From positions 130,184-194,183 of the forward strand of contig CCNB01000045.1 of NCBI GenBank assembly GCA_000824785.1: a stretch of DNA of 64,000 nucleotides, read 5' to 3'. A program made the position numbers and the translations under genes. A model generated the notes under the pieces. The model was not told where the DNA came from, searched no databases, and was given only the letters and a program-made list of their open reading frames with translations. This DNA comes from Mesorhizobium plurifarium (GTDB lineage Bacteria; Pseudomonadota; Alphaproteobacteria; Rhizobiales; Rhizobiaceae). Of the stretch, positions 2,193 to 6,903 are shown in pieces (position 1 is the first letter of the stretch; every line of letters starts with the position of its first letter).

Positions 2193-2948
2193 GTGACAGA
2201 CCATATCCTCGTCGAGCGCCAGGGCGCCGTGCAGATCATCCGCATCAACCGCCCCGACAAGAAGAACGCGCTGACCCGCGCCATGTATGCGAAAATGTCG
2301 GCGGCGCTCACCGAAGGCGATGCCGATCCGGCGGTTCGCGTGCATGTCTTCCTCGGCGTTCCAGGCGCCTTTTCCTCCGGCAATGACCTTGCCGATTTCC
2401 TGGTCATCGCCACAGGCGGCGAGGGCGGCAACGAGGTCTGGGATTTCCTGATGGCGCTGGCCAGGTCGCAAAAGCCGATGGTGTCGGGCGTCGACGGTAT
2501 TGCGGTGGGCATCGGCACCACGCTCAACCTGCATTGCGACCTGACCTTCGCCACGCCGCGCACGCTGTTCCGCACGCCCTTCGTCGATCTCGGTCTTGTG
2601 CCGGAGGCCGGCTCCAGCCTGATCGCGCCGCAGCTCCTGGGACGGCAGGGCGCCTTCGCGCTGCTCGGCCTCGGCGAGGGCTTCTCGGCCGAGCGCGCCA
2701 AGGCCGCCGGCATGATCTACGACGTCGTCGCGGAAGACGCGTTGGAAAGCACGGTGCTGGCCGCCGCCGACGGCATCGCCGCCAAGCCGCCGCAGGCGCT
2801 GAAGATCGCGCGCGACCTGATGCGCGAGCCGCGCGAAGCGCTCGTCGCCCGCATCAAGGTGGAAAGCGAGCATTTCCGCGAGCGGCTGACCTCCGAAGAG
2901 GCGCGCGCCGCGTTGACGGCTTTCATGACGCGCAAGAAGGCGAGCTGA
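2193..2948 (+). CDS. Enoyl-CoA hydratase/isomerase family protein
   Basis: Crotonase-fold protein of 251 residues, the second step of beta-oxidation or a related CoA reaction. It starts with GTG at 2193. The N-terminal INRPDKKNALT segment and the oxyanion-hole region PGAFSSGNDLADF match the crotonase family. The usual hydratase glutamates are not obvious: around residue 130 it reads PFVDLGLVPEAGSS, in which the glutamate of PEAG is the family's typical isomerase/hydratase acid. So isomerase or hydratase activity are both possible. It directly follows the acyl-CoA dehydrogenase and is probably co-transcribed with it. Confidence 0.88.
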   Translation: MTDHILVERQGAVQIIRINRPDKKNALTRAMYAKMSAALTEGDADPAVRVHVFLGVPGAFSSGNDLADFLVIATGGEGGNEVWDFLMALARSQKPMVSGVDGIAVGIGTTLNLHCDLTFATPRTLFRTPFVDLGLVPEAGSSLIAPQLLGRQGAFALLGLGEGFSAERAKAAGMIYDVVAEDALESTVLAAADGIAAKPPQALKIARDLMREPREALVARIKVESEHFRERLTSEEARAALTAFMTRKKAS

Positions 2949-3159
2949 TTTCACGACACTGTCAGGTTGTGGCAGGTTCGAACGAAACTCGCGTAAAACG
3001 CGATTTTCGGTCTGTACACTCGCGTCATGCCGCCCTATCTCACGAATTCGACGGGCGGGGGCCGAGTCGCCTGGAGAGGACATGGCCCGCAATATTGCCG
3101 CCCACGCGCAATCTTCCGAAATGATCAGAGGCCTGCATTGACGGATTGAAGCGTCCGAT

Positions 3160-4479
3160 ATGCTTGCCGTTGCCGTAAAACCGCTGGTTCTGACCCTGAG
3201 ACTCTGGTGGCGCTTCTGGCCGCAACTGGTCGCCATGGTGCTTCTGGGCATCGTGTTCGGCGACCTGTTCATGCAGGTCGCGGCACGCGCGGCCTTGCTC
3301 AACCACATGGCCGGCTTGGCCTTGCTGACGCTGGTGGCGCTGACACAGCTCATCGTCACCGTGGCCATGTTCCAGACGCTGCTGCCTGCCTTGCCGGCCG
3401 TGCGCGCCGCGCAGCAGGCGGCCCAGGGCGAAAGCGAAACCGGGCCTGCCGGCGGCAGCGCGCGGCTGGCGCGCATGATCACCGTCGCGCTGCTGCCCTT
3501 TTTCGCCTATTACGCCGCCTGGGGTTTTCTCGGCGACACGGTGCGGCAATATTCGCGCGTCGCGCTCGACATGGCGCCTTTCGGCGAGGGCGCCGGCAAT
3601 GTGCTCGATGTGCTGGATTCGCGCTGGCTGATCGTGTCGGTCGTCATCTCCTGGCTGATCAGGCGCTTCGCCACCGCCATGCAGAAGCGCGGCGGCTCGC
3701 GCTCCTTCTGGCAGATCGTCGTGGTCATATGCGAAACCAACTGGATCTTCATCGGTCTCTACGTGATCTCGCGCTGGAAGGACGAAGCCATCGCCTGGAT
3801 CATGAGCCGCAACATCTTTTCCGCGCTGCAGGCGGCGGCCGACGGCGCGACGCACCCCATCGCCGGCGCCTTTGCCGCCCCGATGGTGCCGGTCGAGGTC
3901 ACCTCCGTCGACACGACGACCAGGCTGGTGAACCTGTTCTTCTACATGCTCCTGCCGGTGATCTGGCTGGTTCTGGCGGCGCTGATCTATGGCTATGACG
4001 TGCGCGACGACAAGGAATTGATGCGCGTGCACCGGCGGGTCGAGCGCCTGGGCGAGCGCTATCGCGCCATCCCGAAATTCCTGCGCGACTTCGCCGAGCA
4101 TTTCATCTCCGGCTACCGATCGCGCTACCTGCCGATCGCCAACGGCGTGCGCATCACGTTGAGCTCGGGCGTGGTGCTGATCGTGACGCTCATCGTCGGC
4201 TACCGCCTGATCGACTGGCTGGCGGCGTGGGCGTGGCTCGGCATGACGCGGCTCATCGGCCCGCACGAGCTCGACACCTGGCAAGTGCTCTCCGAAGGTG
4301 TGTCGCTGCTGTTCGGCAGCCCATTCCAGGATTCCTCGACCGGCATCCTGGTCGAGCCGCTGCGCATCTCATTCCTCGCCGCGATCCTCGAAACCGCATT
4401 CGCGCTGCCCAAGCGCCAGGTCGGCGAGAGTGGGCAGCCTTCCGGACCGACGAGCCCGGCAGAGGCGCAGCATGCTTGA
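3160..4479 (+). CDS. Polytopic inner-membrane protein of unknown function, first gene of a four-gene cluster
   Basis: I do not recognise a characterised family. The 439-residue product has about seven hydrophobic segments (roughly residues 20-42, 50-75, 105-125, 155-170, 180-205, 260-283 and 330-365). Between the last two lies a charged cytoplasmic-looking loop (KELMRVHRRVERLGERYRAI), and the tail is polar and proline-rich. There is no ATP-binding motif and no obvious transporter signature. Its last eight bases overlap the start of the next gene (ATGCTTGA), and three small exported proteins follow within 10 bases of each other, so the four are almost certainly one operon. It may be a membrane anchor or channel for the exported partners, but that is only inference. 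Confidence 0.75.
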   Translation: MLAVAVKPLVLTLRLWWRFWPQLVAMVLLGIVFGDLFMQVAARAALLNHMAGLALLTLVALTQLIVTVAMFQTLLPALPAVRAAQQAAQGESETGPAGGSARLARMITVALLPFFAYYAAWGFLGDTVRQYSRVALDMAPFGEGAGNVLDVLDSRWLIVSVVISWLIRRFATAMQKRGGSRSFWQIVVVICETNWIFIGLYVISRWKDEAIAWIMSRNIFSALQAAADGATHPIAGAFAAPMVPVEVTSVDTTTRLVNLFFYMLLPVIWLVLAALIYGYDVRDDKELMRVHRRVERLGERYRAIPKFLRDFAEHFISGYRSRYLPIANGVRITLSSGVVLIVTLIVGYRLIDWLAAWAWLGMTRLIGPHELDTWQVLSEGVSLLFGSPFQDSSTGILVEPLRISFLAAILETAFALPKRQVGESGQPSGPTSPAEAQHA

Positions 4480-5065
4480 AAGCGCACGCTCACGGCTGAA
4501 GGCATGGACCGTCGCCGGTATCGGCACGGCGGCCGCAATCGCCGCTGCCGGCGTGCTCGGCGCTTTCGGCGCGAGGCATGAACCGCTGCCGGTTCTGGCG
4601 CCGGCAAGCCAGATCGATATAGGCGAGTGGCTGTTGCGGCCCTTGAAGGCCTATGTCACCGCGGAGAAATACGCCTACGGGACGTTGCTCAAGCCGGGCG
4701 GCAAGGCGCTGGTGCTCGAGGTCGAGATGACCAACCGCACGGCAAAATCCACCAAGGACTATTTCGACGTGCTGCAGGCAGGCTCGACGGTGGTCGATCC
4801 GGCGACCAAACCCTTCATCGTGCTGACGCGCGATTCCACCATGTCGCCCGAGTTGCATCCCGGCATGCCGGAGCGCATGGCCTATATCTGGCAATTGCGG
4901 GACGGAGCGGCCGTACCGGCAAGTTTCGACCTGACCGTCATCCGCAAGACCTACAAGCCGCGCGACAACCTCTACGGCCTGCCGGGTTGGTTCAATCCCA
5001 CGCCGGCCGGCACGCTGACCATTCCCGTCGGCGCCGGACCCGCCGGCGCGGATATCCAGCCATGA
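4472..5065 (+). CDS. Membrane-anchored exported protein, beta-rich, unknown function
   Basis: 197 residues. A signal-anchor helix spans about residues 12-32. The rest looks like a beta-sandwich domain: KALVLEVEMTNRTAKS followed by SPELHPGMPERMAYIWQL, a pattern like DUF4352/telokin-like proteins (a strand on regulated-ligand Asn, then a stabilising pitch around a PG turn). This resemblance is by eye only. The start ATG at 4472 overlaps the stop of the upstream membrane gene by 8 bases, indicating translational coupling. The next gene begins 7 bases after the stop. The domain would face the periplasm. Confidence 0.75.
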   Translation: MLESARSRLKAWTVAGIGTAAAIAAAGVLGAFGARHEPLPVLAPASQIDIGEWLLRPLKAYVTAEKYAYGTLLKPGGKALVLEVEMTNRTAKSTKDYFDVLQAGSTVVDPATKPFIVLTRDSTMSPELHPGMPERMAYIWQLRDGAAVPASFDLTVIRKTYKPRDNLYGLPGWFNPTPAGTLTIPVGAGPAGADIQP

Positions 5066-5072
5066 GGCGCCC

Positions 5073-5651
5073 ATGATGCGAAAATCGGCCAACATCGTCC
5101 TGCTGCTTCTCGCCGTGGTGTTCTGCTACGGCCTGCAGATATCGAAGCCGCATTATGGCGACCTGATCGGGCCGATCCCGGCGCGGGGCAAGCTGGCCGA
5201 CACGGTCGTCGGGCGCGCCTTCGAGGTCCATGCCGAAAAGATCGAGTTCGCCCGCAAGCTGAAGGTCGACCAGTTCGGCCGACAAAAGGTGCTGACCACC
5301 GGCGGCGTCTGGGCCGTGGTCACGGTCGCGTTCGCGGCGCGGGCAGAATCGACCGTGGTCTCCGTCGCGTCCTGGCGTGGGCCGACCGGTCTTACCTACG
5401 ACCAGACCGAGCGGCTGTCCTTCATGAACGGGCTTTTGCCGGTCGCGGTCGATCCCGGCCTGCCGAGGAAGGCGAGGCTGATCTTCGAAGTGCGGCCGGA
5501 CCAGGCGAACAACGCGACCTTGCTCATTTCGGAGAAGCTGGTGGCGGCGCTGGACTCGCAGGCCGAGATCTCGCTTGGGCCGGTGACGATCACGGCGGAC
5601 GGCCTGCCCGGCGGCGCGGTCGATACGCTGGATATGGCTGAGCCACTCTGA
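5073..5651 (+). CDS. Membrane-anchored exported protein, unknown function
   Basis: 192 residues, with an N-terminal hydrophobic helix at about residues 6-22 (ANIVLLLLAVVFCYGLQI) and then a soluble, probably periplasmic, region rich in alternating hydrophobic residues (TGGVWAVVTVAFAARAES). Together with the genes on either side it looks like a diverged version of the same anchor-plus-beta-domain layout. ATG at 5073 follows the previous stop by 7 bases, with GAGGCG as a weak ribosome site. No catalytic motif is visible. Confidence 0.75.
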   Translation: MMRKSANIVLLLLAVVFCYGLQISKPHYGDLIGPIPARGKLADTVVGRAFEVHAEKIEFARKLKVDQFGRQKVLTTGGVWAVVTVAFAARAESTVVSVASWRGPTGLTYDQTERLSFMNGLLPVAVDPGLPRKARLIFEVRPDQANNATLLISEKLVAALDSQAEISLGPVTITADGLPGGAVDTLDMAEPL

Positions 5652-5660
5652 GGAGAGCAA

Positions 5661-6230
5661 ATGACGGCAGAGGCTCTGGATCGGAACAATAGGGCAAGCG
5701 AGCGGAAATGGCGCCGCCGCAGCCTCTGGTCGCTTTTGGTCCTGATCCCGTTGGCCTTGGCCGTGGAGTCCTATGACAGCGTCAAGGCCCTGCTTGGGAA
5801 CAACGACCTGTTCCCGCGCCGCGTCGCCTGGGGCGAAAGCGCGCGTTTCGGCGGCAGCGACTGGAAGCTGACCGATTTGCGCGGCGCCTTCGGCATGTCG
5901 AACCTGCCGCCGGACTCGGTGCCCGTGCTGGCCGACTTCCAGGTGAAGATCGGCGATCCCGACCTGCAAAAGCTCTGGCTCGGCTGCAAGATCGTGCTGG
6001 TCGACAAGGACGGCCGGCGCTGGTCGCCGACCTCGATCGTCTCGCTGAAAACCCCCGACAATGTCGGCAACTGCATCTCGGCGATCTTCTCGGGCGCCAA
6101 GAGCGGCGACACGCTCGACCTGCGCGAGACGTTCCTGGTGCCGAAGGAAGCGACGAAGTCCGTACGCCCATCCGTCAGCGTCGCCAGCGAACGGCCGCGT
6201 TTCCTGCTGTTTCAGCTCGAGAAGGACTGA
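5661..6230 (+). CDS. Membrane-anchored exported protein, unknown function, last gene of the cluster
   Basis: 189 residues. A basic stretch (ASERKWRRRS) precedes a hydrophobic helix at about residues 23-37, then a periplasmic-looking domain with the pattern VPVLADFQVKIGDP ... LGCKIVLVDKDGRRW ... LRETFLVPKEA. Two cysteines (LGCK and GNCIS) could form a disulfide. A good ribosome site (GAGGAG) lies 6-10 bases before ATG. The gene ends 15 bases before the end of convergent pdxH, closing the operon. Same gross architecture as the two preceding genes. Confidence 0.75.
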   Translation: MTAEALDRNNRASERKWRRRSLWSLLVLIPLALAVESYDSVKALLGNNDLFPRRVAWGESARFGGSDWKLTDLRGAFGMSNLPPDSVPVLADFQVKIGDPDLQKLWLGCKIVLVDKDGRRWSPTSIVSLKTPDNVGNCISAIFSGAKSGDTLDLRETFLVPKEATKSVRPSVSVASERPRFLLFQLEKD

Positions 6231-6245
6231 TCTCCCGCCTCGAGG

Positions 6246-6863
6246 TCAGGGATAGAGTCGCGTCTTGTCCCAGCCGCCCTTGGCGTTGCGCGAAAAGACG
6301 ACACGGTCGTGCAGGCGGAACGGCCTGTCGTGCCAGAACTCGACCGTCTGCGGCAGGATGCGGAAGCCCGACCAGTGCTTCGGCCGTGGAATCTCGCCGA
6401 TGGCATAGCGCGCCGTGTATTCGGCCACCGCCTTCTCCAGCGCGAAGCGGCTCTCCAGCGGCCGCGACTGTTTCGAGGCCCAGGCGCCGATGCGGCTGCC
6501 GCGCGGCCGTGTCGCATAATAGGCGTCGGCCTCGGCGTCGCTGACGATCTCCACCGGCCCGCGCACGCGCACCTGGCGGCGCAGCGATTTCCAGTGGAAG
6601 CACATCGCCGCCTTCATGCTGCCAAGAATCTCGCGGCCCTTGGCGCTCTCGAAATTCGTGTAGAAGACAAACCCCTTTTCGTCGAACCCCTTGAGCAGCA
6701 CCATCCGCACATCCGGCATGCCGTCGGCGTCGACGGTTGCCAGCGCCACGCCGTTGGGATCGTTGGGCTCGCTTTTGCCGGCATCCTCCAGCCATGCGGC
6801 AAAGAGCCGGAACGGCTCCGCAGCTTCGGTGAAGTCACTGCTTGTTAACTCGGTTTCGTTCAT
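6246..6863 (-). CDS. pdxH: Pyridoxamine 5'-phosphate oxidase
   Basis: FMN enzyme of 205 residues that oxidises pyridoxine or pyridoxamine 5'-phosphate to pyridoxal 5'-phosphate, the last step of vitamin B6 salvage. Family features in order: [25 protein letters not shown] (FMN/PLP contact), [28 protein letters not shown] and the C-terminal [12 protein letters not shown] ending in TRLYP. The start at 6863 gives the usual length; a reading frame open to 7274 would add 137 unrelated residues that overlap the divergent gene. The convergent neighbour ends 15 bases away. Confidence 0.95.
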
Positions 6864-6903
6864 AGTTTTCCAAATTTTTAACATTGCGGGAGGAGTTCGC
6901 CGA

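Follow-up and report, generated by a model that had tools for sequence, protein, structure and literature searches.

A four-gene set of Mesorhizobium plurifarium that probably encodes one undescribed membrane complex

Four adjacent genes of Mesorhizobium plurifarium, called here g1 to g4, almost always occur together in scattered bacteria despite changes of order and orientation, and on this ground we conclude that they probably encode one undescribed membrane complex. They lie on the forward strand of the window, that is, the whole 64,000-nucleotide stretch that was analysed. The first, g1 (3160..4479), encodes a polytopic membrane protein of 439 amino acids with eight hydrophobic regions. 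It is followed by g2 (4472..5065, 197 aa), whose product has a single anchor and presumably an extracytoplasmic beta domain, by g3 (5073..5651, 192 aa), single-anchored and DUF4352-like, and by g4 (5661..6230, 189 aa), modelled as an anchor helix with a beta-sandwich. The sequence-only reading had called these four ORFs, with an overlap of 8 bases between g1 and g2 and gaps of 7 bases between g2 and g3 and 9 bases between g3 and g4; the junctions are exact, and the ORFs are real, with homologues in many genera. All four genes are under purifying selection, as dN/dS was 0.13-0.31 in 16 of 16 comparisons (four genes, four relatives each). A promoter scan of 2900-6300 found no sigma-70-like site, and four terminator-like sites were counted there against a shuffled mean of 1.7. 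Two neighbours outside the module mark the edges of an insertion described below: on the left an ORF on the forward strand (2193..2948, start codon chosen by eye from the ORFs of relatives), which we take to be an enoyl-CoA hydratase-like gene, and on the right an ORF on the reverse strand (6246..6866), presumably a pyridoxamine-phosphate oxidase-like gene (pdxH).

A scan of genome contigs with g1 gave 152 confirmed relatives, and the best 80 loci were used, so that the sample leans to close relatives. Profile HMMs, built from alignments containing many of the scored loci, detected all four genes together in 76 of these best 80 of 152 loci. Two loci (L039 and L066) stop at a contig edge and another (L040) holds only g1; in all three genomes g2, g3 and g4 are present on another contig (g4 being truncated by the contig end in the L066 genome), and 79 of the 80 thus keep all four genes. 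The L040 genome has g2-g4 on a contig of 44,295 bases and g1 on one of 45,901 bases, and no g1 was found in 40,000 bases of the g2-g4 contig: g1 is unlinked from g2-g4 in this genome, yet all four are retained. In Mesorhizobium sp. B2-7-1 (L074:6001-7105), a shortened g1 abuts part of g4, g2 and g3 are missing from the locus, and no g3 was found elsewhere in the genome; this locus looks like a remnant of the module. When 249 genomes of the order were sampled, the g1, g2 and g4 profiles matched the identical six genomes, and g3 matched the same six plus a weak partial match in genome G234 (E 1.1e-6, profile positions 74-153); these positive genomes belong to only two genera and hence represent few independent events. 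The module is patchily distributed, being present in 10 of 151 genomes of the family, in 6 of 249 of the order and in 6 of 398 of the phylum; these samples overlap, and each includes the genome of the window. Between the four proteins, the distance matrices show correlations of r 0.87-0.91 over 72 rows, whereas permutations reached at most 0.245; linked genes that are simply transferred together would also give such a correlation. The co-conservation on which the earlier idea of an undescribed system depended is thus strong, and the searches made here gave no described function for any of the four genes; this idea therefore stands.

The order and orientation of the set vary. Among the 76 complete loci, taken from the best 80 of 152, 60 are convergent (g1> <g4<g3<g2), 15 are co-directional in the order of the window, and one, in Reyranella (L080), reads g2>g3>g4>g1>. 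A tree of g1 with 79 rows, made by a quick method and having long branches and a very distant outgroup (Nonomuraea), requires at least four changes of arrangement, with the set kept. Absent from this tree are L001-L010 (the window standing for L001), L039, L040, L049, L066, L074 and L087, as well as L023, L026 and L046, which have a stop within the ORF. Since the outgroup and most branches are convergent, the one-operon order of the window is probably derived. The translational coupling of all four genes, from which a single complex had been argued, is likewise probably derived and does not support the complex in the way proposed, g1 being a separate convergent unit in 60 of the 76 loci.

The module is an insertion in the clade of the window. 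In the 15 loci of this clade (L011-L022, L049, L070 and L074), the module or its remnant lies between the enoyl-CoA hydratase-like and pdxH-like genes, and all six of the other genomes of the same genus that were compared have this site without the module. The two flanking genes are adjacent in four of the six, with matched ends 16-31 bases apart, and another small gene lies between them in the other two. G355 and G394, which are among the six, carry a convergent module elsewhere. The four genes travel between genomes as a set. In two congeners (L100:770-1500 and L105:776-1500), the site itself holds small genes, which we take to encode a LysE-like exporter and a BA14K-like protein, and small genes may be gained there repeatedly. 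A separate observation concerns a Mesorhizobium locus (L031:7860-8532) in which the g4 match lies about 670 bases from the g3 match, against fewer than 100 in L025, L027, L030 and L035.

The module was found in Rhizobiales, Rhodobacterales, Burkholderiales and one actinobacterium, and it also occurs on plasmids. In a tblastn search of plasmid records, g1 matched 42 records (E <= 10) and g3 matched 37 (E <= 1). Judging from the per-genus counts and the rows listed, the records of Nonomuraea, four Paracoccus and Sinorhizobium garamanticum were matched by the g1 query only, and that of Paracoccus yeei by g3 only; Nonomuraea and the two of these four Paracoccus records that were scanned by HMM have all four genes. 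Convergent sets are present in plasmids of Paracoccus, Sinorhizobium, Shinella and Agrobacterium, where the genes are annotated 'hypothetical protein', and a second Shinella plasmid carries a co-directional set. The P. yeei plasmid (L137:3612-5651) has an IS6-like transposase next to g3 and to partial g2 and g4, with no g1 match, and the S. garamanticum plasmid (L138:3720-4381) holds two g1 pieces, with no annotated gene and no g3 match; both look like remnants. Nine pattern matches in viral contigs included no relative.

The actinobacterium is Nonomuraea gerenzanensis (Actinomycetota), first seen in the plasmid records as a weak g1 tblastn match (E 2e-3). Among its 14,099 ORFs, the profiles matched g1 at 2.5e-21, g3 at 3.2e-15, g2 at 7.4e-3 and g4 at 6.0e-3, in convergent order; the E-values of g2 and g4 are weak, and these two calls rest partly on position. 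A co-occurrence in Actinobacteria, raised by the sequence-only reading, is borne out by this one genome only. Next to g2 in the same locus (L091:11006-14703) are divergent genes for a 657-aa protein without a Pfam family and for a HerA-like ATPase. Another locus, titled Mycobacterium sp. KBS0706 (L073), is probably misidentified, since the g1 tree places it with Inquilinus (L075) and the two have flanking ORFs in common.

These data bear on whether the four genes act together at all. Were g1 and g2-g3-g4 functionally separate units, merely co-carried on a mobile islet, one could understand the mostly convergent orientation, which suggests separate transcripts, the presence of the set at different sites within one genus, and the two plasmid remnants that each retain just one of the two units. 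However, both units are retained in the L040 genome although they are unlinked, the order is kept or reshuffled with no loss in alphaproteobacteria, betaproteobacteria and Nonomuraea, and the incomplete sets appear decayed rather than intact halves. We consider such a mere co-carriage unlikely, and favour a single complex, whose predicted parts are described below.

Searches of Pfam and NCBIfam at E <= 1 gave no match for any of the four window proteins. The earlier statement that none matches a known family holds for these proteins, but some relatives of g3 show weak matches to DUF4352, and the g4 model adopts the DUF4352 fold. In scans of all members of the alignments, DUF4352 (PF11611) was the sole repeated signal with a good E-value, other families being weak and scattered. 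It was matched by 9 of 53 members of the g3 family (best E 2.2e-5), the g3 of the window not being among them, and weakly by 2 of 49 g2 relatives (best E 0.11); it was not among the families listed for the 55 g4 alignment rows, and no protein of the genome of the window matched it at E <= 10. The alignments were thinned at 85% identity to 36 g1, 49 g2, 53 g3 and 55 g4 rows, after cut, stop-bearing or off-length ORFs (9 of 90 g1, 12 of 86 g2, 0 of 86 g3 and 5 of 87 g4) were left out and the short g1 row of L049 was removed by hand.

The predicted g4 model (pLDDT 91.1) shows a long anchor helix and a beta-sandwich. Foldseek matched it to YxkC (9a4z, itself an integrative model) at E 5.9e-8, and VIA-align gave Z 12.8 with YxkC (rmsd 2.5, 124 aligned), 11.7 with YjhA and 10.1 with MPT63, so that the modelled g4 has a fold of the DUF4352/MPT63 type. 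From the sequence matches of its relatives, g3 appears to be of the DUF4352 kind too. The g2 and g3 profiles match each other (probability 86.8, pairwise E 4.3e-6), which would tie g2 to the same kind through g3, and beta-sandwich folds are accordingly predicted for both. In profile comparison g4 scored 0.2% against g3 and 4% against g2, with no likeness to the former and next to none to the latter; a shared origin of all three would thus rest on fold. Sequence-profile searches of the PDB yielded no credible match, those of g3 to an ApaG chain (E 1) and of g4 to a RuBisCO chain (E 0.47) being taken as chance.

One N-terminal helix had been claimed for each of the three proteins. Kyte-Doolittle analysis agrees for g2, with one segment, and for the N-terminal segment of g3, which has in addition two overlapping, weaker peaks at residues 73-99, inside its beta domain. 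For g4 no Kyte-Doolittle peak exceeded the threshold, but the model opens with one long helix (residues 3-47). Two residues of the g2 anchor, G18 and A22, are invariant in the 49-row alignment and would fit helix packing. In g4, C109 and C138 are invariant in the 55-row alignment and would fit a disulphide outside the cytoplasm; the Nonomuraea g4 is without any cysteine. The module has in common with the secreted and lipoprotein domains of B. subtilis YxkC, YjhA and YcdA and M. tuberculosis MPT63 the beta-sandwich of the g4 model and the weak DUF4352 match of g3 relatives. Unlike these DUF4352/MPT63 proteins, it would comprise three different tethered copies tied genetically to one polytopic membrane protein, and the window proteins fall short of the Pfam model that DUF4352 members match.

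For g1, about seven helices had been counted, and we find instead eight hydrophobic regions after merging overlapping Kyte-Doolittle peaks. No family was found for it in Pfam, NCBIfam or PDB sequence-profile searches. Its predicted model is of middling confidence (pLDDT 75.6) and places short helices (123-138, 219-231 and 371-385) between pairs of long ones. With VIA-align, human CTL1 (9qu3) came out on top at Z 11.5 (rmsd 4.9, 230 aligned), the second row having Z 6.5, although for helical bundles a Z under about 13, as here, may be chance. According to PMC13160678, the fold of CTL proteins is unusual and threefold pseudosymmetric, with three amphipathic helices that are described for both CTL1 and PNS1, and their function is unestablished and possibly other than transport. 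The three short helices of the g1 model resemble those amphipathic helices. One could accordingly picture g1 as a bacterial protein of the CTL/SLC44 fold (transmembrane helix, amphipathic helix, transmembrane helix, three times), perhaps with a lipid-like ligand and with beta-sandwich partners. Against this, Foldseek found nothing at E <= 0.001 for the g1 model (best E 1.5); PF04515 was absent from the matches of 36 g1 members (E <= 1, with HMMER filters that drop most weak ones) and from the genome of the window at E <= 10; and profile comparison of the three segments of g1 gave no sign of an internal repeat, since shuffled columns scored as high in 18, 22 and 6 of 60 cases. Moreover, g1 has eight hydrophobic regions against ten transmembrane helices in human CTL1 and yeast PNS1, with no sequence match, and is bacterial with three partner genes. 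A possible common helix arrangement notwithstanding, we hold this assignment of g1 to be distinctly improbable. The more specific picture, an obligate heteromeric envelope machine in which a bacterial core of this fold, so far known from eukaryotes, is capped by three different DUF4352 domains, is a long shot; if true, it would offer a genetically tractable route to the function of the CTL/SLC44 fold.

No constant partner of the four genes was found in the neighbourhood of the module. None of the 18 widest neighbour clusters is a fifth gene common to all clades, the two widest being antisense or shifted-frame shadows of the module (one example of each was read). In 27 of 87 loci, under five clade labels only, a broad ABC-ATPase cluster lies no more than about 6 kb from g1; apart from the shadows, no neighbour cluster spans all clades, and no ATPase belongs to the gene set in the annotated plasmids that were read. 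The annotated neighbours in plasmids are varied, with many metabolic or transport genes, and nothing in the neighbourhood names a substrate. In Bordetella, the same gene (77% identical), which we take to be TonB-dependent-receptor-like, lies between g1 and g4 in one locus (L063:7431-9548) and upstream of g1 in another (L050:2760-4865). It was dropped as a fifth module gene: apart from a weak partial match in L046, none of the other fetched loci had it by tblastn, and it stands by the module in the two Bordetella loci only.

A patchy presence and movement as a set would also fit an anti-phage defence module, and a HerA-like ATPase is near the module in Nonomuraea. That gene is known from the single actinobacterial locus examined, however, none of the four proteins of the window matched a PADLOC model at E <= 0.1, the module has no enzyme-like effector, and its annotated neighbours are varied as described; a role in defence is thus extremely improbable. 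The available portions of the literature on DUF4352, YxkC, MPT63 and B. subtilis structural proteomics contained no description of the module, and YxkC, DacA, YjhA and YcdA were not found in the main text of PMC11383924 and PMC10090944.

We therefore return to a single membrane complex as the preferred explanation. The four genes would encode one obligate inner-membrane complex, with g1 as a multi-helix core and g2, g3 and g4 as three subunits of the DUF4352-type beta-sandwich, each held by its N-terminal helix over the outer face of the core. The three outer domains would bind an envelope or small-molecule ligand, which would be passed through the g1 core or signalled to it. ABC transporters likewise combine a membrane core with accessory outer subunits; unlike them, the module has no ATPase gene in its set. 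As neither a conserved ATPase nor a fifth gene was found, the ligand would most likely be handled without ATP hydrolysis of the complex's own. We judge it likely that the four proteins form such a complex, which would handle a ligand at the outer face with no ATPase of its own; that the ligand would be transferred rather than sensed seems to us doubtful.

No known system fitted the module, and its function could be ordinary transport. A four-gene set that is conserved through rearrangement and transfer is, in any case, very unlikely to be idle, yet no family library that was searched contains its core protein, g1. In addition, DUF4352, a domain of unknown function, would acquire through the module a defined partner in the membrane, which makes the role of this domain testable.
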